This document shows, in pieces, positions 2,587 through 46,323 of a stretch of 50,372 nt of DNA. The notes beneath the pieces were generated by a model. It made no database searches. It saw nothing but the letters and a program-made list of their open reading frames with translations, and was not told where the DNA came from. Position 1 is the first letter of the stretch. Every line of letters begins with the position of its first letter. Source of the DNA: Candidatus Adlerbacteria bacterium (lineage in GTDB: Bacteria; Patescibacteriota; Minisyncoccia; Phycocordibacterales; SBAW01); the NCBI GenBank assembly GCA_903819895.1, contig CAIJFH010000015.1:1-50372 (forward strand). The letters are read 5' to 3'. Made by a program: the position numbers and the translations under genes.

Positions 2587-2598
2587 CTATAATTACGT

Positions 2599-4773
2599 AT
2601 GGCAACCAGAGCATTAGTACAACGATTAGGAGCATTGACCAGCTACCGCTACGGCGTCGATAGCTACGACTCTACCAAACTGGGGTTGGGGCCGTTGATG
2701 ACACAAAACAATGGCGGTGCCGAAGCGTCCTACGCGGGGCCAGTGCCGATTGGTGTGGCGCACCCGGCTGAGCAGGCCGTGGCGATACCAGCCACGTATC
2801 CTTGGAGTATGCGCTGGCAGGCAAACGCAGCGGGCGATATCGACTGGGTGTTTCTTGCTGATAACGCTGCTGCTGCGGCAACGCGCCGAATTATGATGTA
2901 TACGTTTGATCGACGACTCGGCCTCTGGTCGTGGGTTGGGTTTGTGACGGTAACCTTTCCTACGGGTACCAACTACACTATCCGTGGTTTTGAGATGACC
3001 TACGATCTCTACACAACAGGCACGGTTACAGGTAGTTCGGGTTCTACTGCAATCACTGGCTCGGGCACGGCGTGGTCGACCTCGCGCATTCCAACTGGCT
3101 GCCGCATTGGGTTTGGCTCGACCGACCCCACACAAATTACGGTCTGGTATGGTATCGCGACTGTTGGATCCGATTCATCGATTACGCTTGCGACAAACCT
3201 TGCTAGTAATGTAAGTGGCGCGTATGTAATCGAGGATCTGCGTGCGGTCATGGCCACTACAAATGCAACCACTACCAACGGCGGGTTGTGTGTTGTGAAA
3301 GGACTCCGCAAAGAGTTGTTTACCAGTTTGGGTGGCGCGGTGCCGGCAGCAACGACTGTCGACAGTGCGCTTGGATGTTACTGGATTGCTGACGCATCGA
3401 CTGTCTTAAATATTGCAGCACTGGGGCTCGCGCTTGCTGCTAAGACCGGTTGGACAAATCAGACCGCCTATGTAATCGACGCAACATCGACCCCAACTAT
3501 TTTCGCATACAACATCCGTGGTGCACTAACCTTGTCAGGAGGTAAAGATACCACATCGTTGCTGTTTAGAACGGGCGCGACCACAGCTATTGCCGGTGGT
3601 ACGCCGTCACAGCTCAACAATTTTGAACTGGCAACCGCCAACCATGGCCCTGGTGCGGGCAAGTCCTGTCTCTATTTTACCACTCCAGCCCGTGTGTATC
3701 GGACAATAGAGGTAGGAGCGATCACCACGGGCTCAACCTTGTGGGTTGCTGATGCAATGGTCGAGACCCCTCCGGGCGGCCTCAACACCTATCCGGCTGG
3801 TGGCAACTTCCAGACCCTTGCGTACATAGCCAGTATCGATAAGTTTGTCATTACCCAAGCAACGGGTACCACTGCGTATCGCAACTACGTCACACAGTAT
3901 CGTACCGATTCTGCCCCCCTAGATCGCGCGTGGGGTACTGATATTCGCCAGACCGATATCACCACTACCGACTCAAGTGTTACGCCGGTTCCATCGCATT
4001 CGACACAGGTGCATACCGTATATTGTGACACGGGTATGTGCTACTTGGCGGGGACTGGTGGGACCGCAGCGACCAACCGTGTGTATGCAGTGCCGTTTGG
4101 TGCCGACTGGGAATACACTGGCGCGCCCAACAACACTAAGTCCTATTTGGTATTGCCCGCATGGACTATGAACGATGCAGTGCAGTTTACCAACGTGTTC
4201 GTAAACGATGTGCAGGTCTTGGGCGGCAAGACCGGCAACAACCTGGGGCTGGGCACCGAGCCCCTGCGCGTGAGCTACCGCACCAGCGGCATCTCGGACG
4301 ACTCTGGTGTGTGGACTCCGGTCGACTCAACCGGAGTGATCACCGACGTGGGGTCAACACAAATCCAGTTGCGTATCGAGTTTCGCACCATTGGGGTCAC
4401 GTGTATCCCCGCGCGCGTGTGTGCGGTCGGGGTCGTGTACAACGACATTACTACCGACACACACTATCAACCATCGGTTGCAAACTCCAACACCTTTAAC
4501 AAGCAATTTGCATGGCGATTTGCCACCGCGTTTGGTGGCACCGTGCCGACACTGCGTGTGCGATTGTACGACGCTGTCAGTGGCGGGTTGTTGGTTGATG
4601 ACAACACAGCGTCGCCCACGGGCACTTGGGATAAGTCGACCAATGGTGGCACAACCTGGGCGGGCGTATACGACACGAACGACAAAACAAACGAGACGAC
4701 CTACATCCGCTACACGCCCGCGGCGTTGGGGAACAACACCAAGGTGCGCGCATTGTTGACGCTTAACGTATAA
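2599..4773 (+). CDS. Large conserved paralog 1 (MATRALVQRLGALTSYRYGVDSYDSTKLGLGPLM...)
   Basis: 724-aa ORF, 12 nt after previous stop; homologous along its length to the ORFs at 5276 and 7634; no signal peptide evident. Confidence 0.9.
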   Translation: MATRALVQRLGALTSYRYGVDSYDSTKLGLGPLMTQNNGGAEASYAGPVPIGVAHPAEQAVAIPATYPWSMRWQANAAGDIDWVFLADNAAAAATRRIMMYTFDRRLGLWSWVGFVTVTFPTGTNYTIRGFEMTYDLYTTGTVTGSSGSTAITGSGTAWSTSRIPTGCRIGFGSTDPTQITVWYGIATVGSDSSITLATNLASNVSGAYVIEDLRAVMATTNATTTNGGLCVVKGLRKELFTSLGGAVPAATTVDSALGCYWIADASTVLNIAALGLALAAKTGWTNQTAYVIDATSTPTIFAYNIRGALTLSGGKDTTSLLFRTGATTAIAGGTPSQLNNFELATANHGPGAGKSCLYFTTPARVYRTIEVGAITTGSTLWVADAMVETPPGGLNTYPAGGNFQTLAYIASIDKFVITQATGTTAYRNYVTQYRTDSAPLDRAWGTDIRQTDITTTDSSVTPVPSHSTQVHTVYCDTGMCYLAGTGGTAATNRVYAVPFGADWEYTGAPNNTKSYLVLPAWTMNDAVQFTNVFVNDVQVLGGKTGNNLGLGTEPLRVSYRTSGISDDSGVWTPVDSTGVITDVGSTQIQLRIEFRTIGVTCIPARVCAVGVVYNDITTDTHYQPSVANSNTFNKQFAWRFATAFGGTVPTLRVRLYDAVSGGLLVDDNTASPTGTWDKSTNGGTTWAGVYDTNDKTNETTYIRYTPAALGNNTKVRALLTLNV

Positions 4774-4777
4774 ACCT

Positions 4778-5269
4778 ATGATTGACCTCACCCAAGGAGA
4801 TACATTGTACGACCGCTCTGATTTAGTGATCGCGTCACCCACGGGCTCGTATGAGGATATTGATCTAATCTTGTGCGCAACCGTAGACAATCCAACGTTT
4901 CCCATCTGCATGTTCCAAGCGCAGTATGTGCGCTATGGCGGGCAGGTGTACGCGGTCAACACGCCACAAGAAAAAGCCGAAGTAATCGCTGCGATAGATG
5001 CTGACATCGCTGATGATGCGACAACGCCGGACACAACACCCGATGCGGTCGACTCAACTCCTGCACCGGTTGTCGACACTCCACCCGCAACAACAACGCC
5101 AGATACGAGTACCGCCTCGACAACGCCGCCGATACAACCCGACACTGGGTCGGCAACCTCTACCGACCCGTTGCCGGACATACTCAACACGGGTGTTTCC
5201 TCGACAACGCCACCAGTAGTCGTGCCGCCCGCCGCATCCTCGACCGATGCAACATCCACGCAGCAATAA
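4778..5269 (+). CDS. Hypothetical protein with Asp/Thr/Pro/Ser-rich low-complexity C-terminal tail
   Basis: 163-aa ORF tightly packed between paralogs 1 and 2. Confidence 0.75.
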   Translation: MIDLTQGDTLYDRSDLVIASPTGSYEDIDLILCATVDNPTFPICMFQAQYVRYGGQVYAVNTPQEKAEVIAAIDADIADDATTPDTTPDAVDSTPAPVVDTPPATTTPDTSTASTTPPIQPDTGSATSTDPLPDILNTGVSSTTPPVVVPPAASSTDATSTQQ

Positions 5270-5275
5270 TTTTGT

Positions 5276-7459
5276 ATGGCAACCACTCGTGCAGTTATCC
5301 AACGTCTCGGCGCTCTCGCGACCTATCGCTATGGCGTCGACAGCTACGACTCCACCAAACTTGGGTTGGGGCCCTTGATGGTACAAAACAACGGCGGTGC
5401 CGAGGCGTCCTACGCGGGGCCGATGCCGATTGCGATCGTGCGCCCATCGGAGTCGCCCATTAGTACCTCAACCAGCTTTCCGTGGAGTATGCGCTGGCAG
5501 GCAACCGCAGCGGGCGATATCGACTGGGTGTGTATGATTGACAGTTCCGCTGCCGCCGCGACGCGCAAGTTGAGCATGTATACGTTTGATCGTCGCGCGT
5601 CGGCTTGGACGTGGGTTGGATACACAACCATTACCAACCCCTCCTCGGGTAACATGACCGTGCGCGGGTTCTCCATGACCTACGATCTCTACACGACAGG
5701 TACGGTCACGGGCAGTAGTGGTAATGCAGGTATCACGGGCTCGGGCACGGCGTGGTCGGCTTCGCGTATCCCAGCGGGTTGCCGCATTGGGTTTGGCTCG
5801 ACCGACCCGACGCAGATCACCACGTGGTACGTGATCTCATCCATCGGCTCTGATACGGCGATTACACTCACAGCGACCTTGAGCGGCAATGTAAGCGGCG
5901 CGTATGTGATCGAGGATCTGCGCGCAGTGTTGGCGATGACCTCGGGTGCGGGTACCAGTGGTTTATTTGTCGTCAAAGGTCTATACAAAGATTTTTTTAC
6001 CACCAATGGCGCCAACTCAATAGCGGCAGCAACGAATGCCGACAACATCCGCGCCTGTTACTGGCTTGCTGATGCCGCTACCGACACCAACAACACGCCA
6101 ATTGGGCTTGCGGTTGCAGCCAAGACCAGTTGGACAAATCAGCTGGTATATATCGTTGACGGTACCTCGACACCATCACTCTATGTGTACAATCTGCGTG
6201 CGGCACTTACGCTCGCAAGCGGTAAGGACACCACTTCCTTGGTAGTAAAGACAGGTACTATCCCAACTGCGCTTGCGGGTACGCCGTCCCAGCTGAACAA
6301 CCTTGAGCTCGCCACTACCAACCATGGTCCTGGTATCGGCAAGCCGTGTCTCTACTTCACCACCACGACTCGCATGTATCGCTCCTACGACGTGAGCACG
6401 ATTACAACCGGCTCTACCACCTGGCTTGCGGATGCTATGATCGAAACCCCGCCAGGAGGTATCAACACCTACCCCACGGCCGGCAACTTTCAAACCCTTG
6501 CGTATGCAGCCAGTATCGATAAATTTGTTATCACTCAGACGACCAGCAGTACTGGGTATCGCAACTATGTCACGCAGTATCGCACCGACTCTGGGCCGAT
6601 GGACCGCGTGTGGGGTGTTGACGCACGACAAACGGATGTGGCTGCGGCAGATGGGACCACCACTCCCATCCCAACCGACTCCGGTCAGACGATGAGTGTC
6701 TATTGTGATACGGGTATGTGCTATCTCGCGGGTGTTGCCGCCACTGCGGCGACCAACCGTGTGTACGCAGCGCCGTTTGGTGCCGACTGGGAGTATACGG
6801 GTGTGCCAAACAATACCAAAAGTTGTTTGGTGCTCCCCGCGATTAGTACTGCCGACGCGGTGCAGTATACCAATATCATCCTCAATGATGTGCAGGTGGT
6901 TGGGGGGAACACGGGCTACAATTTGGGGCTCAGCACCGAGCCCTTGCGTGTGTGGTATCGCACCGCGGGCATCCTCGACGACTCCGGTGCGTGGACCCTT
7001 GCCGACTCTACCGGCGTGCTCACCAAAGCGGCGGGGACAAAGATCCAATTGCGCATCGAGTTTCGCACTATTGGGGTCGCCTGTTTGCCCGCGCGTGTCT
7101 GCGCGGCGGGTGTTGCATATACCGACATCGGGGTTGATGTGCACTTTCAGCCATCGGTGGGGAAGTCGAGTGCTGCTAGTACACAGTTTGCCTGGCGGTT
7201 TGCGACCGCGTTTGGGGGCGCGGTGCCCGCACTGCGCCTGCGCTTGTATGATAGTGTAACTAATACGTTGTTGGTCGATGACAACACCACCGCGCCCGTT
7301 GGATTATTTGAAAGCACGACAAATGGTGGCACGTCCTGGAGCACCTACAACCAAGCAAACAATATCAGTGACAAAGGCAACGAGACGACCTACATCCGCT
7401 ACACGCCCGCGTCGCTTGGGAGTGGTATCAAAGTCCGCGCATTACTCACGCTGCAATAA
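5276..7459 (+). CDS. Large conserved paralog 2
   Basis: 727-aa ORF homologous to 2599-4773 and 7634-9853. Confidence 0.9.
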   Translation: MATTRAVIQRLGALATYRYGVDSYDSTKLGLGPLMVQNNGGAEASYAGPMPIAIVRPSESPISTSTSFPWSMRWQATAAGDIDWVCMIDSSAAAATRKLSMYTFDRRASAWTWVGYTTITNPSSGNMTVRGFSMTYDLYTTGTVTGSSGNAGITGSGTAWSASRIPAGCRIGFGSTDPTQITTWYVISSIGSDTAITLTATLSGNVSGAYVIEDLRAVLAMTSGAGTSGLFVVKGLYKDFFTTNGANSIAAATNADNIRACYWLADAATDTNNTPIGLAVAAKTSWTNQLVYIVDGTSTPSLYVYNLRAALTLASGKDTTSLVVKTGTIPTALAGTPSQLNNLELATTNHGPGIGKPCLYFTTTTRMYRSYDVSTITTGSTTWLADAMIETPPGGINTYPTAGNFQTLAYAASIDKFVITQTTSSTGYRNYVTQYRTDSGPMDRVWGVDARQTDVAAADGTTTPIPTDSGQTMSVYCDTGMCYLAGVAATAATNRVYAAPFGADWEYTGVPNNTKSCLVLPAISTADAVQYTNIILNDVQVVGGNTGYNLGLSTEPLRVWYRTAGILDDSGAWTLADSTGVLTKAAGTKIQLRIEFRTIGVACLPARVCAAGVAYTDIGVDVHFQPSVGKSSAASTQFAWRFATAFGGAVPALRLRLYDSVTNTLLVDDNTTAPVGLFESTTNGGTSWSTYNQANNISDKGNETTYIRYTPASLGSGIKVRALLTLQ

Positions 7460-7471
7460 TCTATCTCGCAT

Positions 7472-7630
7472 ATGCCCACCGACATTTGTTTTTGCCTAGG
7501 AGATAAACAGGGGTTCATCATCGAACTGGCAGCGGGCTCGCTTAACGCGCCGGTTGATATTCTTGCCGAGGCCAGTGGACGTGCCTTGGTCGAAGAGACG
7601 AGCGGCGGTATTATTTTTATTACCGATTAA
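7472..7630 (+). CDS. Small hypothetical protein, 52 aa (MPTDICFCLGDKQGFIIELAAGSLNAPVDILAEASGRALVEETSGGIIFITD)
   Basis: Open frame filling the gap between paralogs 2 and 3; below the ORF track size cutoff. Confidence 0.55.
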   Translation: MPTDICFCLGDKQGFIIELAAGSLNAPVDILAEASGRALVEETSGGIIFITD

Positions 7631-7633
7631 TAT

Positions 7634-9853
7634 ATGGCAGTCACCGCACTCATCCAACGTCTCGGCGCTCTCGCGACCTACCGCTATGGCGTCGACAGCT
7701 ACGACTCCACCAAACTGGGGTTGGGTCCCTTGATGGTACAAAACAACGGCGGTGCCGAGGCGTCCTACGCGGGGCCGATGCCGATTGGTGTGGCGCACCC
7801 GTTTGAGCAAGCGGTAGCAAATGCCACGTCGCTTCCTTGGAGTATGCGTTGGCAAGCAAATGCGGCGGGGGATATTGACTGGGTATTTTTTATTGACAAC
7901 TCGGCAGCATCCACGACAAGAAAACTCACCATGTACACGTTTGATCGTCGCGCGTCGGCCTGGACGTGGGTTGGATATACAACCGTAACAACTCCATCGG
8001 GAGGTAACTTGACCGTGCGCGGGTTTTCGATGACCTACGATTTGTATACCGCAGGCACTGTCACAGGCACTGCAGGAACGACATCGATTACCGGTACGAG
8101 CACAGCTTGGTCGACATCACGCATCCCAATTGGTTGCCGTATTGGGTTTGGTTCAACCGACCCGACACAAATTACGGCGTGGTATGAAATATCGGCGATT
8201 GGGTCGGACACAACGATTACGCTCACGACGAACCTTGCGGGTAACGTGAGCGGCAACTATGTTATTGAGGATTTGCGGGCTGTTTTTGCGATTACGAGTT
8301 CGACGGCAAACAGCGGCGGGTTAATTGTGGTAAAAGGTTTGCGAAAAGAACTATTTACAACCACTGGTATCACGGCAGTTGGTGCTTCCTCTGGTACCGA
8401 CGGTGTCCGTGGTTCGTACTGGCTCGCTGACGCAGCGACCGCGACCAACAACACCGCATTTGGTCTGGCGGTGGCAGCCAAGACCAGTTGGACAAGCCAA
8501 TACTGTTACATCATTGATACTACAACGACACCGATTATCTATAAATATGATGTGCGTGCAGCGCTTACGTTGGCGAGCGGTAAGTCGACCAGTGCGTTTT
8601 TGTTTAAGACCAACACCAATGGTACGCTCTCGGGTACGCCATCGCAGTATAATAATTTGATTTTAGCGACCACCAACCATGGCGCAGGGTCAGGGAAGCC
8701 ATGTTTGTATTTTACAACGACGACCTATGTGTACCGCACCGCAGATGTAACCACCATTGCCAATAACTCAAGCAACTGGCTCACCACGAATGGCGACAAA
8801 ATGACCGAGATCCCGCCGGGTGCCACGGGAACTTTTGTTGCGTCCAGCAACATGCAAACGCTTTCTTACTTGGCGAACATCGACAGTTTTGTGATCACTA
8901 CAGCGAGTAGCACCACAGGGTATCGAAACTATGTAACCAAATACTACAACGATGGCGCAACGCAAATGGATCGAGTGTGGGGAGTTGATATACGTCAGAC
9001 CGACATCACAACAACCGACTCAACGGTGACACCGGTGCCGTCCTACTCGACGACGGCATATACCGTCTATTGTGACAACGGGTTGTGTTACTTGGCGGGT
9101 GTGGGTACCGCAGCGATTACTGATCGTGTCTACGCGGTGCCCTTGGGTGCCGACTGGGAGTACACGGGTGGCACTACGGTGTCCAAATGTTACCTCGTGC
9201 TTCCTGCACAGAGCGTGAGTGATGCGACCGTCTTTACCAATGTGTTTGCCAATGATGTGCAGGTGTTGGGCGGCAAGACCGGCAACAACTTGGGGCTGGG
9301 CACCGAGCCCTTGCGCCTCAGCTATCGCACCAGCGGCATCTCGGACGACTCGGGCTCGTGGGCCGCGGTCGACTCAACGGGGGTGATCGCGGCAGCGACT
9401 GCAACTCAGATCCAGCTGCGGGTCGAGTTTCGCACCATTGGCCTTATGTGTATCCCCGCACGTGTGTGCAGTGTTGGTGTGGCGTACGAGGACGCGACCA
9501 CCGACTCGCACTTCCAACCATCGGTCACCCTGTCGGATATCACCAACAGCCGATTTGCGTGGCGCTTTGTCACTGCGTTCAACGGCACGGTGCCCGCCAT
9601 GCGCGTTCGCCTCTATGACGCAACGTCACCGGGCTCGGCGGCGATTATCGACGACAGTATCTCTGTCCCCGCATCCCCAGCCGGCACGTTTGAAAGTAGT
9701 ACAAACGCAGGCACCTCCTGGAGTACCTACGACAGTACGCATGCGCTTGCCGATAAAAGCAATGAGACAACCTATGTGCGGTACACCGTGGCCTCCGCAT
9801 CGCTTTCAAGTATCAATGGAAAGACAATCCAAGCGGTGCTCACGCTTAAGTAA
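7634..9853 (+). CDS. Large conserved paralog 3
   Basis: 739-aa ORF homologous to the two preceding large ORFs. Confidence 0.9.
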   Translation: MAVTALIQRLGALATYRYGVDSYDSTKLGLGPLMVQNNGGAEASYAGPMPIGVAHPFEQAVANATSLPWSMRWQANAAGDIDWVFFIDNSAASTTRKLTMYTFDRRASAWTWVGYTTVTTPSGGNLTVRGFSMTYDLYTAGTVTGTAGTTSITGTSTAWSTSRIPIGCRIGFGSTDPTQITAWYEISAIGSDTTITLTTNLAGNVSGNYVIEDLRAVFAITSSTANSGGLIVVKGLRKELFTTTGITAVGASSGTDGVRGSYWLADAATATNNTAFGLAVAAKTSWTSQYCYIIDTTTTPIIYKYDVRAALTLASGKSTSAFLFKTNTNGTLSGTPSQYNNLILATTNHGAGSGKPCLYFTTTTYVYRTADVTTIANNSSNWLTTNGDKMTEIPPGATGTFVASSNMQTLSYLANIDSFVITTASSTTGYRNYVTKYYNDGATQMDRVWGVDIRQTDITTTDSTVTPVPSYSTTAYTVYCDNGLCYLAGVGTAAITDRVYAVPLGADWEYTGGTTVSKCYLVLPAQSVSDATVFTNVFANDVQVLGGKTGNNLGLGTEPLRLSYRTSGISDDSGSWAAVDSTGVIAAATATQIQLRVEFRTIGLMCIPARVCSVGVAYEDATTDSHFQPSVTLSDITNSRFAWRFVTAFNGTVPAMRVRLYDATSPGSAAIIDDSISVPASPAGTFESSTNAGTSWSTYDSTHALADKSNETTYVRYTVASASLSSINGKTIQAVLTLK

Positions 9854-15824: not shown

Positions 15825-15879
15825 ATGGCAACGCTCTACACGCATCAGACAGAAAATAGCGCCAAGACGTGGGTCTTGA
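15825..15879 (+). repeat. Duplicated htpX 5' end, copy 1 (truncated ORF MATLYTHQTENSAKTWVLN*)
   Basis: 54/55 nt identical to 16756-16810 (G/A difference at 15866 versus 16797). Confidence 0.95.
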
Positions 15880-16755: not shown

Positions 16756-16810
16756 ATGGCAACGCTCTACACGCATCAGACAGAAAATAGCGCCAAAACG
16801 TGGGTCTTGA
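16756..16810 (+). repeat. Duplicated htpX 5' end, copy 2 (start of intact htpX)
   Basis: 54/55 nt identical to 15825-15879. Confidence 0.95.
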
Positions 16811-32901: not shown

Positions 32902-32907
32902 CGTCTA

Positions 32908-33205
32908 GCGTGCTGGGTAGCTACTCTGGCGGAGACGCTGGAGAGGAAAGTCCGAACACCAACTCTGCATAAGAGTTAAAAGGGTAGCAGGTAATCCCTG
33001 TCAGTCGCTCGTGGCGGGCGACAGAGGTGCGAACAGTGACGAATCCCTTCAGTGGGAGTGAAACGGCTAAATCCTTACCTGGGTGCAAGGCCGTGTCCCG
33101 AGATCCGCCAATTGGCGGCATCGAGGGAAGAGCCGCTCGATCTCGATGGCGACATCGAGACCAGATAAATTGTTACCCACGACAGAATTCGGCTTACAGG
33201 CACGC
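32908..33205 (+). ncRNA. rnpB: RNase P RNA, bacterial type
   Basis: GAGGAAAGTCCG, ACAGAATTCGGCTTA, P1 pairing GCGTGC/GCACGC; TACAAT -10 at 32894-32899. Confidence 0.93.
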
Positions 33206-33220
33206 GCGCCATTGTGTAGA

Positions 33221-35041: not shown

Positions 35042-36919
35042 ATGCAGCAGATCCGCAACTTTAGTATTATCGCGCACATCGACCACGGCAAGTCGACGCT
35101 GGCCGACCGCATGCTCGAAATTACGGGCACTATCGAACGTCGAAAGATGCGCGACCAGGTGCTCGACTCGATGGACCTCGAGCGCGAGCGGGGGATTACC
35201 ATCAAAATGCAGCCGGTCAAGATGGTGTGGCGCGACACGATGCTCAACCTCATCGACACGCCGGGGCATATCGACTTTTCCTACGAAGTGTCGCGCGCGC
35301 TGACCGCGGTCGAGGGTGCGGTGCTCTTGGTTGACGCGACACAGGGTGTGCAGGCGCAGACGTTGACGACGCTGCGCACTGCGCGCGAGCTGGGGTTGGT
35401 CATCGTCCCTGCGCTCTCCAAAATTGATTCGCCGCTCGCCGAGGTAGACGATGTGCGCGCGCAAGTTGCAGCACTTCTCGAAATCGACCCCGACGAGATT
35501 CTCCTCTGCTCGGGCAAAACCGGCGAGGGGGTTGAGAAATTACTCGAGGCGGTTATTACCAGAGTTCCTCCGCCGAAATCAGCCGACTACGGGCACGGCG
35601 ATTTTCCTGCTGAAAAATCGCCTGAAGTTCTCGCGCCGTCGCGCTCGAAACTCCCTCCGTCAGCTATTTCGGCTCCGCGCGCGCTGGTGTTCGACTTTCA
35701 ATACTCCGACCATCAGGGCGTGATTGTCTACCTGCGTCTGTTTGAGGGGCAGATTAAAAAAGGTGATGTGCTCGAGTTTGCTGCCACGGGTCGCAAGTTT
35801 ACTGCGCTCGATGTTGGCAGTTTTTCTCCGACGCCCGTCTCGCTCCCTGGTGGGTTGTCAGCGGGGATGATCGGCTACGTGGTGACCGGCATCAAAGAGC
35901 CGGGGCTCGCACGCGTGGGCGACACGGTTCGTCTCAATGGTTCAAAAACGGCACCACTGTCGGGCTATGCCGAGCCACGGCCGGTGGTGTGGGCGAGTAT
36001 CTACCCCGAAAGTCAAGATGATTTTACTGCCCTGCGCCAAGCACTGTCGCGGCTGCGGCTCTCTGACTCGTCTCTTTCCTTCGAGGAGGAGTCGTCGGGG
36101 ATGCTTGGGCGCGGATTCCGCTGCGGATTGCTCGGCATGCTCCACCTCGAGATCGTCACCGAGCGTCTGCACCGAGAAAATAATTTGTCACTCGTCGTGA
36201 CCACGCCGACTATTACCTATGAGGTCGAGACAAAAGACGGCAAGCGGCACACCGTGTACTCGCCGCCACAATTCCCCGACCATGGGATGATTCTGCAAAT
36301 CTGGGAGCCGTTTGTGTCGGCAGAGATTTTGATCCCCGCCGAGTACTTGGGTGCCTTGATGCCACTCCTCTTTGAGCACGAGGCAGCGACCGAGTCGACC
36401 GAGACCTTCTCGGGTGGTGGCTTGTCCTCGCCACATGGGGGCAGGGTGATGGTCAAAGTGGTGATGCCGCTGCGCGAACTGATGCGCAACTTTTTTGATA
36501 AGTTAAAAAGTGTGTCGTCCGGCTATGCATCAATCTCCTACGAGCAGCGCGAGTTGCGCGTTGCTGAGGTGACCCGGCTCGACATCCTTGTTGCCGATGA
36601 GTTGGTGCCGGCGTTTTCGCGCATTATCGCGACGCACCGCGCCGACGAGGAGGCGGTCGCTGCGGTCGAAAAATTGTATAAAATACTTCCGCGCCAGCAG
36701 TTTGCCACCAAGATCCAAGGCCAGGCGCTGGGGCGCATCATCTCCTCGCGCACACTGTCGGCACTCTCCAAAGATGTCACTCAACACATGTACGGTGGCG
36801 ACATCACCCGCAAGATGAAGCTGCGCGAGAAGCAGAAAAAGGGTAAAGCTCGCATGAAGGCCGCCGGCCGCGTCAACATCCCCGAGGATGTCTTTTTGAA
36901 GATGGTGAAATCAGAATAA
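35042..36919 (+). CDS. lepA: Elongation factor 4 (LepA)
   Basis: NFSIIAHIDHGKSTLADRML, DTPGHIDFSYEVSRAL, FRCGLLGMLHLEIVTERL; about 30-aa insertion after RVPPPK. Confidence 0.96.
   Translation: MQQIRNFSIIAHIDHGKSTLADRMLEITGTIERRKMRDQVLDSMDLERERGITIKMQPVKMVWRDTMLNLIDTPGHIDFSYEVSRALTAVEGAVLLVDATQGVQAQTLTTLRTARELGLVIVPALSKIDSPLAEVDDVRAQVAALLEIDPDEILLCSGKTGEGVEKLLEAVITRVPPPKSADYGHGDFPAEKSPEVLAPSRSKLPPSAISAPRALVFDFQYSDHQGVIVYLRLFEGQIKKGDVLEFAATGRKFTALDVGSFSPTPVSLPGGLSAGMIGYVVTGIKEPGLARVGDTVRLNGSKTAPLSGYAEPRPVVWASIYPESQDDFTALRQALSRLRLSDSSLSFEEESSGMLGRGFRCGLLGMLHLEIVTERLHRENNLSLVVTTPTITYEVETKDGKRHTVYSPPQFPDHGMILQIWEPFVSAEILIPAEYLGALMPLLFEHEAATESTETFSGGGLSSPHGGRVMVKVVMPLRELMRNFFDKLKSVSSGYASISYEQRELRVAEVTRLDILVADELVPAFSRIIATHRADEEAVAAVEKLYKILPRQQFATKIQGQALGRIISSRTLSALSKDVTQHMYGGDITRKMKLREKQKKGKARMKAAGRVNIPEDVFLKMVKSE
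35572..35673. repeat. ~100-bp imperfect palindromic element inside lepA
   Basis: Outer IR GCCGAAATCAGCCGAC/GTCAGCTATTTCGGC; core CGATTTTCCTGCTGAAAAATCG; core plus right arm shared with 42964-43013. Confidence 0.85.
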
Positions 36920-42447: not shown

Positions 42448-43656
42448 TCAAATTTGTTGAGAAAGCGAGAGGTTGCCCGTGGCGCGTATGGTCTCTGGTG
42501 GGGGCACCTTTTGTGCGGCAGAGTTCGTCTCGTCAAGCACGATGTGTCCCATCAGGCAGTGAGTCAATGCCGCCTCGGCAATCATGACCGCGTTGTCGCC
42601 GGTGATAGTGCGTTCGGGGAGGCGGTAGGTGACGTCGGGGAACTCATCGGCAACCAATTTCCCCAACATCTCGCGGATGCGCGTGCTCGCGGCGACACCG
42701 CCACCAATCACAAATGTTTTTGCACCTGTTTGCTCGAGCGCTTGGCGGGTTTTGGTGACAAGCACATCAACCACGGCGTCCTCAAATTCCAAGGTAAACT
42801 CGGCGCGTTCACTTTCGCTCAACATATGCACACCACCACGGTCGCGGATCGCGTACAGCGCCGCCGTTTTGAGTCCCGAGAAAGAGAAATCACAGGTGCC
42901 GCTGTGCAGCATCGGGCGTGGGAGCTTCGGTGTGCTTCGCAAAACCAAATCTCGAGAGGTACTCGATTTTTCTGCTGAAAAATCGCTCAGTTCTCGCGCC
43001 GTCGCGCTCGAAAGCCCTCTCTCGACTTGTTTTGCTTCGCGTTTCTTTTCGCGCGCTGCTGCTGCGTGTTTGGAGATATGCGGGCCGCCGGGGTAGGGCA
43101 TGTCGAGCATGCGTGCCACTTTGTCAAACGCTTCGCCAACTGCGTCGTCGAGTGTTTTGCCAATCAGTGCATAGTTGAACCATTCGCGCATCAGGACAAA
43201 CTCGGTGTGCCCGCCAGATATCAGCAGTGCGAGCACGGGCAGCTCAACATCTTTTAGAATAAAGTTTTGGGCTAGAGAAGAAATCATGTGCCCCTCCATA
43301 TGGTTGACGGGGATGAGTGGCAGGCCGTATTCGCCAGCGAGCTTTTTGGCAAACTCAACACCGGTCCACAGTGCGGGCTCGAGCCCCGGGCCATGCGTCA
43401 CCGCGATTGCGTCAACATTAGCTACGCTGATGCTTGCTTCTGCGAGTGCCTTTTCCAGCATCAGCGGCAAGTTTTTTTCGTGTTCGCGCTTGGCGAGCGT
43501 GGGGTAGACGCCACCATACTCGGCATGTAGCGCCGCCTGCGACAGCAGCGCATTCCCAAGCACGGTAAACACAAGCGAGCCATCATCATGTGTGATGCCC
43601 TCCAAAATGGCAATGCCCGTCTCGTCGCAGCTGGTTTCAATTGAGAGAATAATCAT
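42448..43656 (-). CDS. tsaD: tRNA N6-adenosine threonylcarbamoyltransferase TsaD, with internal insertion
   Basis: IIILSIETSCDETGIAI, VTHGPGLEPALWTGVEFAKKLA, NHMEGHM, DFSFSGLKTAALY, GGGVAASTRIREML. Confidence 0.95.
   Translation of the reverse strand: MIILSIETSCDETGIAILEGITHDDGSLVFTVLGNALLSQAALHAEYGGVYPTLAKREHEKNLPLMLEKALAEASISVANVDAIAVTHGPGLEPALWTGVEFAKKLAGEYGLPLIPVNHMEGHMISSLAQNFILKDVELPVLALLISGGHTEFVLMREWFNYALIGKTLDDAVGEAFDKVARMLDMPYPGGPHISKHAAAAREKKREAKQVERGLSSATARELSDFSAEKSSTSRDLVLRSTPKLPRPMLHSGTCDFSFSGLKTAALYAIRDRGGVHMLSESERAEFTLEFEDAVVDVLVTKTRQALEQTGAKTFVIGGGVAASTRIREMLGKLVADEFPDVTYRLPERTITGDNAVMIAEAALTHCLMGHIVLDETNSAAQKVPPPETIRATGNLSLSQQI
42939..43035. repeat. ~100-bp imperfect palindromic element inside tsaD
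   Basis: Outer IR GCAAAACCAAATCTCGAGAGG / CCCTCTCTCGACTTGTTTTGC; core CGATTTTTCTGCTGAAAAATCG; core plus right arm shared with lepA element. Confidence 0.85.
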
Positions 43657-46092: not shown

Positions 46093-46173
46093 TGCAATAG
46101 TTATTAATTACTTACACAAAAAGCCCGCCACGGGTTCCCGGCTGGGGCCGAGCATATCAGTTTCCCGATATGG

Positions 46174-46215
46174 CGAGTAAAGCAACCCCATGACGGGTTT
46201 TTTATGCTTTACTCG
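46174..46215. repeat. Nested hairpin: 11-bp stem enclosing a terminator-like hairpin
   Basis: CGAGTAAAGCA...TGCTTTACTCG around AACCC-CATGAC-GGGTTTTTT. Confidence 0.75.
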
Positions 46216-46323
46216 ACTTTTCGCCATGCCACCTGTTGCCAGATGGTTTAGGCTACTTTCGCACGTATTCAGTTGTACCCTACCAATGTAGCACAAGTTG
46301 TGGTCTCCTGCTATCCTAGCGGT

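Follow-up and report, generated by a model that had tools for sequence, protein, structure and literature searches.

The window analysed here, a stretch of 50,372 nucleotides from a Candidatus Adlerbacteria genome, carries within its lepA and tsaD genes two copies of what we interpret, with a probability of about 0.7, as a mobile non-autonomous palindromic DNA element of Patescibacteria that spreads into both intergenic DNA and the linkers of core genes. We named the family of this element P (Table 1). The genome holding the window (G000) is small and patescibacterial, with 837,506 bases in 38 contigs, and is 96.4% complete. A preliminary description based on the window alone had reported that the two genes share a core of about 50 bp, lying in each case within a palindrome of about 100 bp with differing outer arms. 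This was borne out: the cores read as claimed at 35599-35650 in lepA and 42964-43013 in tsaD, and the arm pair of each copy is self-complementary. At up to 3 mismatches, the window contains TCGCGCCGTCGCGCTCGA twice, against a chance expectation of 0.09. The third-best match in the window to R1, a covariance model derived from 44 P copies, scores just 11 bits, after 81 for tsaD and 65 for lepA.

Table 1. The two P copies of the window and the genes that host them, in window positions
Feature	Positions	Strand	Evidence or remark
lepA (elongation factor 4), 625 aa, host of P copy 1	35042..36919	+	NCBIfam TIGR01393, 688.8 bits; ORF
P element in lepA, whole palindrome, 100 bp	35573..35672	- (folded strand, antisense to lepA)	R1, 64.6 bits
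lepA copy, outer arm P1, left	35573..35593	.	pairs with 35653-35672
lepA copy, hairpin P3, AGCA tetraloop (+ strand TGCT at 35608-35611)	35597..35622	-	covarying helix
lepA copy, near-invariant hairpin P2, GAGCGCGACGGCGCGAG (minus strand)	35630..35646	-	almost unchanged family-wide
lepA copy, outer arm P1, right	35653..35672	.	pairs with 35573-35593
tsaD, 402 aa, host of P copy 2	42448..43656	-	NCBIfam TIGR03723, 333.6 bits
P element in tsaD, whole palindrome, 97 bp	42939..43035	- (folded strand = tsaD sense)	R1, 81.2 bits
tsaD copy, hairpin P3 with AGCA loop	42964..42985	-	
tsaD copy, near-invariant hairpin P2	42993..43009	-	

Elsewhere in the window we noted a LOOT RNA (Rfam RF03000, 92 bits; 46137-46254, minus strand), an RNase P RNA (32905-33212, plus strand) and, at 2598-9525 and 39-1326, large diverged tandem repeats that probably belong to repetitive surface-protein genes, with three copies about 2.4-2.7 kb apart that are 70-80% identical, as well as 435-bp and 78-bp repeats. 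A 55-bp duplication (15825-15879 versus 16756-16810, 98% identical) begins with ATGGCAACGCTCTACACGCATC; starts resembling it also come after the P copies L009 and L031.

Searching the whole genome and its relatives with the core, as the preliminary description had suggested, recovered further copies. Four exact copies of the 23-mer TTCTCGCGCCGTCGCGCTCGAAA are present in the 837 kb of G000 (0 of its reversed control): in lepA, in tsaD, upstream of a MetG-beta-like gene (the C12 copy) and between genes that, as read from their translations, are dksA/traR-like and comM-like (the C37 copy). The core at up to 3 mismatches, a search that also admits chance matches, is found in 23 of the 41 family genomes; R1 detects copies in 35 of these 41, with exactly 4 in G000 and the most, 36, in G006, a member of the same genus. 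In a phylum-wide sample, at least 28 of 380 genomes have R1 copies at E <= 1e-6, including at least 12 of the 17 from the element's own order and otherwise scattered; these counts are lower bounds, 12 candidates having been scored per genome. The named hosts of the core are Patescibacteria, Ca. Adlerbacteria among them. The matches listed in a scan of named genomes come mainly from Nomura-, Kaiser-, Adler-, Yonath-, Zambryski-, Taylor-, Niyogi-, Colwell- and Magasanikbacteria, with Rickettsia absent from those listed. The core matches that we inspected in other phyla are due to chance: they fall in coding sequence, and neither the AGCA hairpin nor the arms accompany them. Rfam contains no described family matching the P element, and 2.9 million viral contigs gave 1 match for P and 0 for a second family, Q (see below), which speaks against a phage-borne element.

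The majority of P copies are intergenic. A mobile cassette bounded by P copies was considered and rejected, since the three copies in G006:C21 sit among housekeeping genes. Certain copies have distinctive surroundings: several in G006 are closely trailed by a second repeat, GCAAARCAAAACAAGTTTGACGGAAYGTTGAGAGGCA (L036 in G006:C21, L006 and L039); inverted pairs about 120-150 bp apart are seen at L304, L305 and L306 (G018:C5, G018:C3 and G006:C25); and four copies of genus g3 (L051, L297, L298 and L299) lie directly upstream of a promoter-like TTGACA-N17-TATAAT. L089, of the subtype with 20-nt spacing (see below), lies beside a tRNA gene and is flanked by a 20-bp direct repeat of the 3' part of the tRNA (AGTGCGCGGTGAGGGACTTG), the one P copy at which such a repeat was noted by eye.

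Relative to the core in the window reading, the folded strand of the element is the opposite one. It forms a three-armed hairpin in the order outer arm, P2 (GAGCGCGACGGCGCGAG), a joint, the AGCA-loop hairpin (P3), G(U/C)(A/G)C and outer arm. P2 is composed of GCGC-GACG-GCGC between tandem GA/GA mismatches and is almost invariant across the family; beyond the genus, most lineages have an A bulge in the AGCA-loop hairpin; and the spacing from core to AGCA loop, mostly 14, 15, 16, 18 or 20 nt, delineates subtypes. Both window copies fold more strongly on the minus strand than on the plus strand (lepA: -49.5 kcal/mol, z -5.4, versus -36.2 kcal/mol, z -3.3; tsaD: z -3.7 versus -1.8). Across alignment A1, 84.6% of cells pair versus 70.6% after shuffling, and the covariation score is 0.398 against 0.165 for shuffled alignments and at most 0.177 for structures slid by 1-3 columns. 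On the folded strand the P3 helix, whose register needs no alignment choice, shows 16 G.U versus 1 A.C in 112 elements, and the outer arms, scored without a preference for G.U, show 101 versus 30. This excess of G.U over A.C on one strand indicates that a folded single strand is preserved, beyond a symmetric duplex. At the same time, orientation relative to genes, as judged from simple ORF calls, is random: among codirectional neighbours the folded strand is sense in 22 cases and antisense in 24, copies within ORFs have it sense in 19 and antisense in 15, and 14 intergenic copies lie between divergent as against 11 between convergent genes. This lack of bias rules out an mRNA element and argues that P acts as mobile DNA.

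Within genes, the insertions are in frame and recur at the same sites. The residues that the lepA copy had been said to add after RVPPPK are indeed extra: the linker has 38 aa here versus 12-16 aa in many LepAs of the same genus, and the added segment was not found in the LepA/EF4 chains of the PDB. In the AlphaFold2 model, which is weak to moderate overall (pLDDT 64), this insert (residues 179-208) belongs to a disordered linker (pLDDT 25-37) that connects a helix to the strand with which the next domain opens. Relatives with an empty TsaD linker have 13 aa there, to which the copy of G000 adds 33. At both sites, alignment with orthologs yielded relatives without the insert; with the further copies described above, neither of the outcomes that the preliminary description had named as refuting its reading was observed. 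Thus, lepA and tsaD are insertion hot spots, with linkers that are either empty or filled, in frame and in either orientation at the same site, by P, by Q or by unrelated palindromes. For instance, the LepA linker holds P in one orientation in G000, G027 and G028 and in the opposite one in G023, and has Q or unrelated palindromes in other relatives; the TsaD linker, where empty, spans 13 aa (14 in a few relatives), and elsewhere contains P, Q or other palindromes. Additional in-frame insertions were placed via PDB alignments in uvrB (P), argS (Q) and rsmI (Q), and are also present in polA, recJ, dus and a mutY-like gene, as identified from translations. Most inserts translate without in-frame stops, which disfavours both in-frame termination and intron-like removal; the tsaD match of G028 shows one TAG.

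Further irregularities were observed in the same genes. TsaD matches break near residues 75-90 in G027, G028, G026, G032, G033, G001 and G040, which suggests a second insertion hot spot in tsaD, and L320, the ArgS of G025, seems to contain a further insertion, DTSEQSVSAEKCALRAARPSPTHFSTGTDYSEEDP, towards its C-terminal part. Three empty tsaD linkers (L215 and L220, of 13 aa, and L225, of 14 aa) contain perfect palindromes of at least 11 bp, which may be scars or template-switch products.

Comparison of G000 with its close relative G027 documents how individual copies change. The C37 element is inverted in place with respect to both flanking genes, an inversion that comes with a compensatory change in the outer arm; at C12 the core is gone from G027 and a short hairpin, GCAGTTGAT-AGTATCTTCA-ATCAACTGC, remains; and the tsaD copy survives there as a remnant only. 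These losses argue against the elements being indispensable. Copies that persist are strikingly uniform: the lepA insert is identical at 101 of 101 positions, with the remaining lepA at 88% and 85%, and the inverted C37 copy is identical over its inner 91 nt between flanks that are 83.5% identical. Such better conservation of the inner elements than of their flanks counts against a decaying selfish insertion; it could reflect either constraint in place or exchange that homogenises the elements. As these copies are common by descent, the pair reveals losses rather than gains and had to be set aside as a source of empty-site insertion boundaries, and no recent insertion was seen between the near-identical genomes compared. 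In genus g3, the same arms are found on copies at several loci with unrelated flanks, indicating that whole elements duplicate.

The most unusual property of the family is that its outer arms are often locus-specific. This is also seen in family Q, whose core is unrelated to that of P and which is defined by the pattern GGTCCTCGG-N-CCAGACCATTTG, with 19 exact-pattern copies in 10 genomes; its G.U/A.C bias (10 versus 3) marks the strand opposite GGTCCTCGG. Three Q copies of G025 have identical 63-bp cores and unrelated arms that are perfectly complementary over 26, 26 and 28 bp from a CAAA/TTTG foot and end sharply; similarly, G026 has two near-identical Q cores with unrelated arms of 25-28 bp. 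Over all 19 copies, ungapped complementarity at arm positions 8-22 is 0.82 within a copy versus 0.375 when left and right arms are taken from different copies, and arms of different copies are 0.39 identical. Within P, the pairs L068/L141 and L098/L116 have cores that are 100% identical and arm identities of 0.30 and 0.40, respectively. Identical cores with unrelated arms make gradual compensatory change an unlikely source of the arms.

The length of the insertions bears on where the arms come from. In argS (L320), the phmmer alignment to 6ao8 ends at ...VAEELAKIL and resumes at ESLPALSF, and by hand count NPRE and FIEK are still separated by their native spacing; the insertion is 30 aa (90 bp) and the palindrome 107 bp, so about 17 bp of one arm occupy native positions. 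In rsmI, an insertion of about 30 aa accompanies a palindrome of 103 bp. The empty linker of tsaD is well defined in length, and there the palindrome span exceeds the insertion by 12-33 nt, approximately one arm, in 9 filled sites; one P copy with perfect 22-bp arms shows a difference of 22. In lepA, G033 (LepA 90% identical to that of G032) has an unfilled linker to which the right arm of the G032 Q copy can be aligned, although this linker may instead represent a later deletion. The inserted length in argS, and as a rule in tsaD, is that of the core and one arm, so that the second arm looks like an inverted local copy. There are counter-examples: the tsaD P copies of G000 and G028 give differences of -2 and -5, so that the window copy looks like a whole-palindrome insertion, and the 40-aa insertion in uvrB has both arms extra. 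Together with the shared arms of g3, the window tsaD copy indicates that manufacture at the target does not account for every arm.

We propose that P probably spreads as a folded single strand, comprising the near-invariant G.A-mismatch hairpin, the covarying AGCA-loop hairpin and a closing stem, into intergenic DNA and tolerant surface linkers of core genes; inside genes, insertions of frame-keeping length would survive. The folded strand would be joined to one target end, whereupon its free 3' end could fold back on the flanking strand, copy about 15-25 bases in inverted form and rejoin, resulting in X-core-X'. The copying of the arm would amount to self-primed or template-switch synthesis, the closing stem would often be target-built, and the net insertion would be the core and one new arm. 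P and Q of Patescibacteria, two unrelated core families at the least, might represent a class of mobile hairpins that build their own terminal inverted repeat from about 15-25 target bases, i.e., by inverted target duplication; we advance this tentatively, at somewhat below even odds. No mobiliser gene was found adjoining P elements, the vicinity of eight Y1 loci included. A reverse-transcriptase-carried element was discarded as RVT_1 occurs in just 14 of the 41 family genomes and is absent from G000.

Fold-back copying during insertion has a close rival in template switching at a resident hairpin, whereby ordinary replication would make and repair the arms of a mobile hairpin core after its insertion, rendering a dedicated step unnecessary. 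Such switching yields perfect hairpins and compensatory changes (PMC8794818), and the perfect 11-bp palindromes in tsaD linkers of unaltered length (L215 and L220) speak in its favour. However, repair alone would remove the conserved bulge and the G.A mismatches, yet both persist, and the arms have sharp ends and similar lengths; we accordingly rate this reading as possible but the less likely of the two.

Two other readings differ in what they take the element to be. If P were a structured RNA functional in place, such as a regulator or small RNA that has spread, selection on the RNA locus by locus would account for the covariation of its stems. The one-strand covariation and G.U bias, the conserved tandem G.A and AGCA loop, and the conservation of elements far above their flanks between G000 and G027 all fit this notion. 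It is nonetheless improbable, being at odds with the unbiased orientation to genes (antisense in lepA), the patchy distribution with two losses in G027, the in-place inversion at C37 and the lack of an Rfam match; moreover, gradual compensation would hardly yield identical cores with unrelated arms. That last observation is equally unexplained, where the arms are perfect, by a REPIN or MITE moved by a REP-associated tyrosine (Y1) transposase whose arms diverged afterwards. Y1_Tnp ORFs, many of 210-290 aa, are present in 29 of the 41 family genomes, including G000, mismatch-bearing hairpins recognised on one strand typify the REP/Y1 system, and the g3 copies have arms in common. Yet there is no R1 match near the eight Y1 loci tested, 8 copy-bearing genomes lack a Y1 match, a genome with nine Y1 matches has no copy, and the GTAG/CGTC end tag is absent, leaving this the most doubtful of the readings and mobility as a folded single strand the one that we prefer.

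Rickettsia is the group best known for protein-coding palindromes. That the ultra-small Patescibacteria have a counterpart of their own, independent and phylum-wide, suggests a recurrent route to new protein segments in reduced genomes. Furthermore, the origin and spread of such palindromes become testable from sequence where identical cores carry unrelated self-complementary arms, and the P element offers an annotation marker for odd inserts in essential patescibacterial proteins. We found no prior description of these elements in Patescibacteria or of spread by arm copying, which is weak evidence as most subscription journals lie outside the literature searched.

The preliminary description had likened the element to the Rickettsia palindromic elements (RPEs), as a coding-sequence-invading palindrome in an unrelated lineage. 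Its dispersed copies, empty orthologous sites and in-frame insertions in core genes agree with this, as do the occurrence of both orientations at one site and the additional palindromic families that insert likewise. RPEs are palindromes of about 100-150 bp, in several families, found in frame in unrelated core genes (PMC10969869), with intragenic cases including uvrB (PMC3733652). P is also a dispersed palindromic repeat family with several copies, in frame in lepA, tsaD and uvrB (argS and rsmI by Q) and absent from orthologs. However, it belongs to an unrelated lineage and is likened to RPEs by behaviour and description, not by sequence; its near-invariant structural core is one and the same across many orders, and locus-specific arms on identical cores are a feature of P and Q. 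RPE-like behaviour is supported, whereas membership of P in the RPEs or REPs is not. With the REP/REPIN elements and their RAYT (PMC3116915, PMC3733652), P shares dispersed hairpins, a strand-specific fold and some intragenic copies, but it lacks the GTAG/CGTC tag at the hairpin foot: the apical loop of P2 contains CGTC, and P3 is followed by G(T/C)(A/G)C. It also has few copies per genome, none of them beside a Y1 gene (eight loci). Unlike MITEs, P has no fixed terminal inverted repeats, its arms varying by locus; of the target-site direct repeats that also mark MITEs, a single case was noted by eye, at L089. The RHE of sponge mitochondria (PMC2800124) are likewise hairpin elements that apparently invaded compact genomes repeatedly, but are described as intergenic, whereas P is bacterial and also lies in frame within genes. 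Finally, the coding palindromes of nematomorph mitochondria (PMC6649704) are perfect inverted repeats in translated genes; there both arms encode conserved protein regions, whereas the inserts of P and Q are extra sequence built on a dispersed core.
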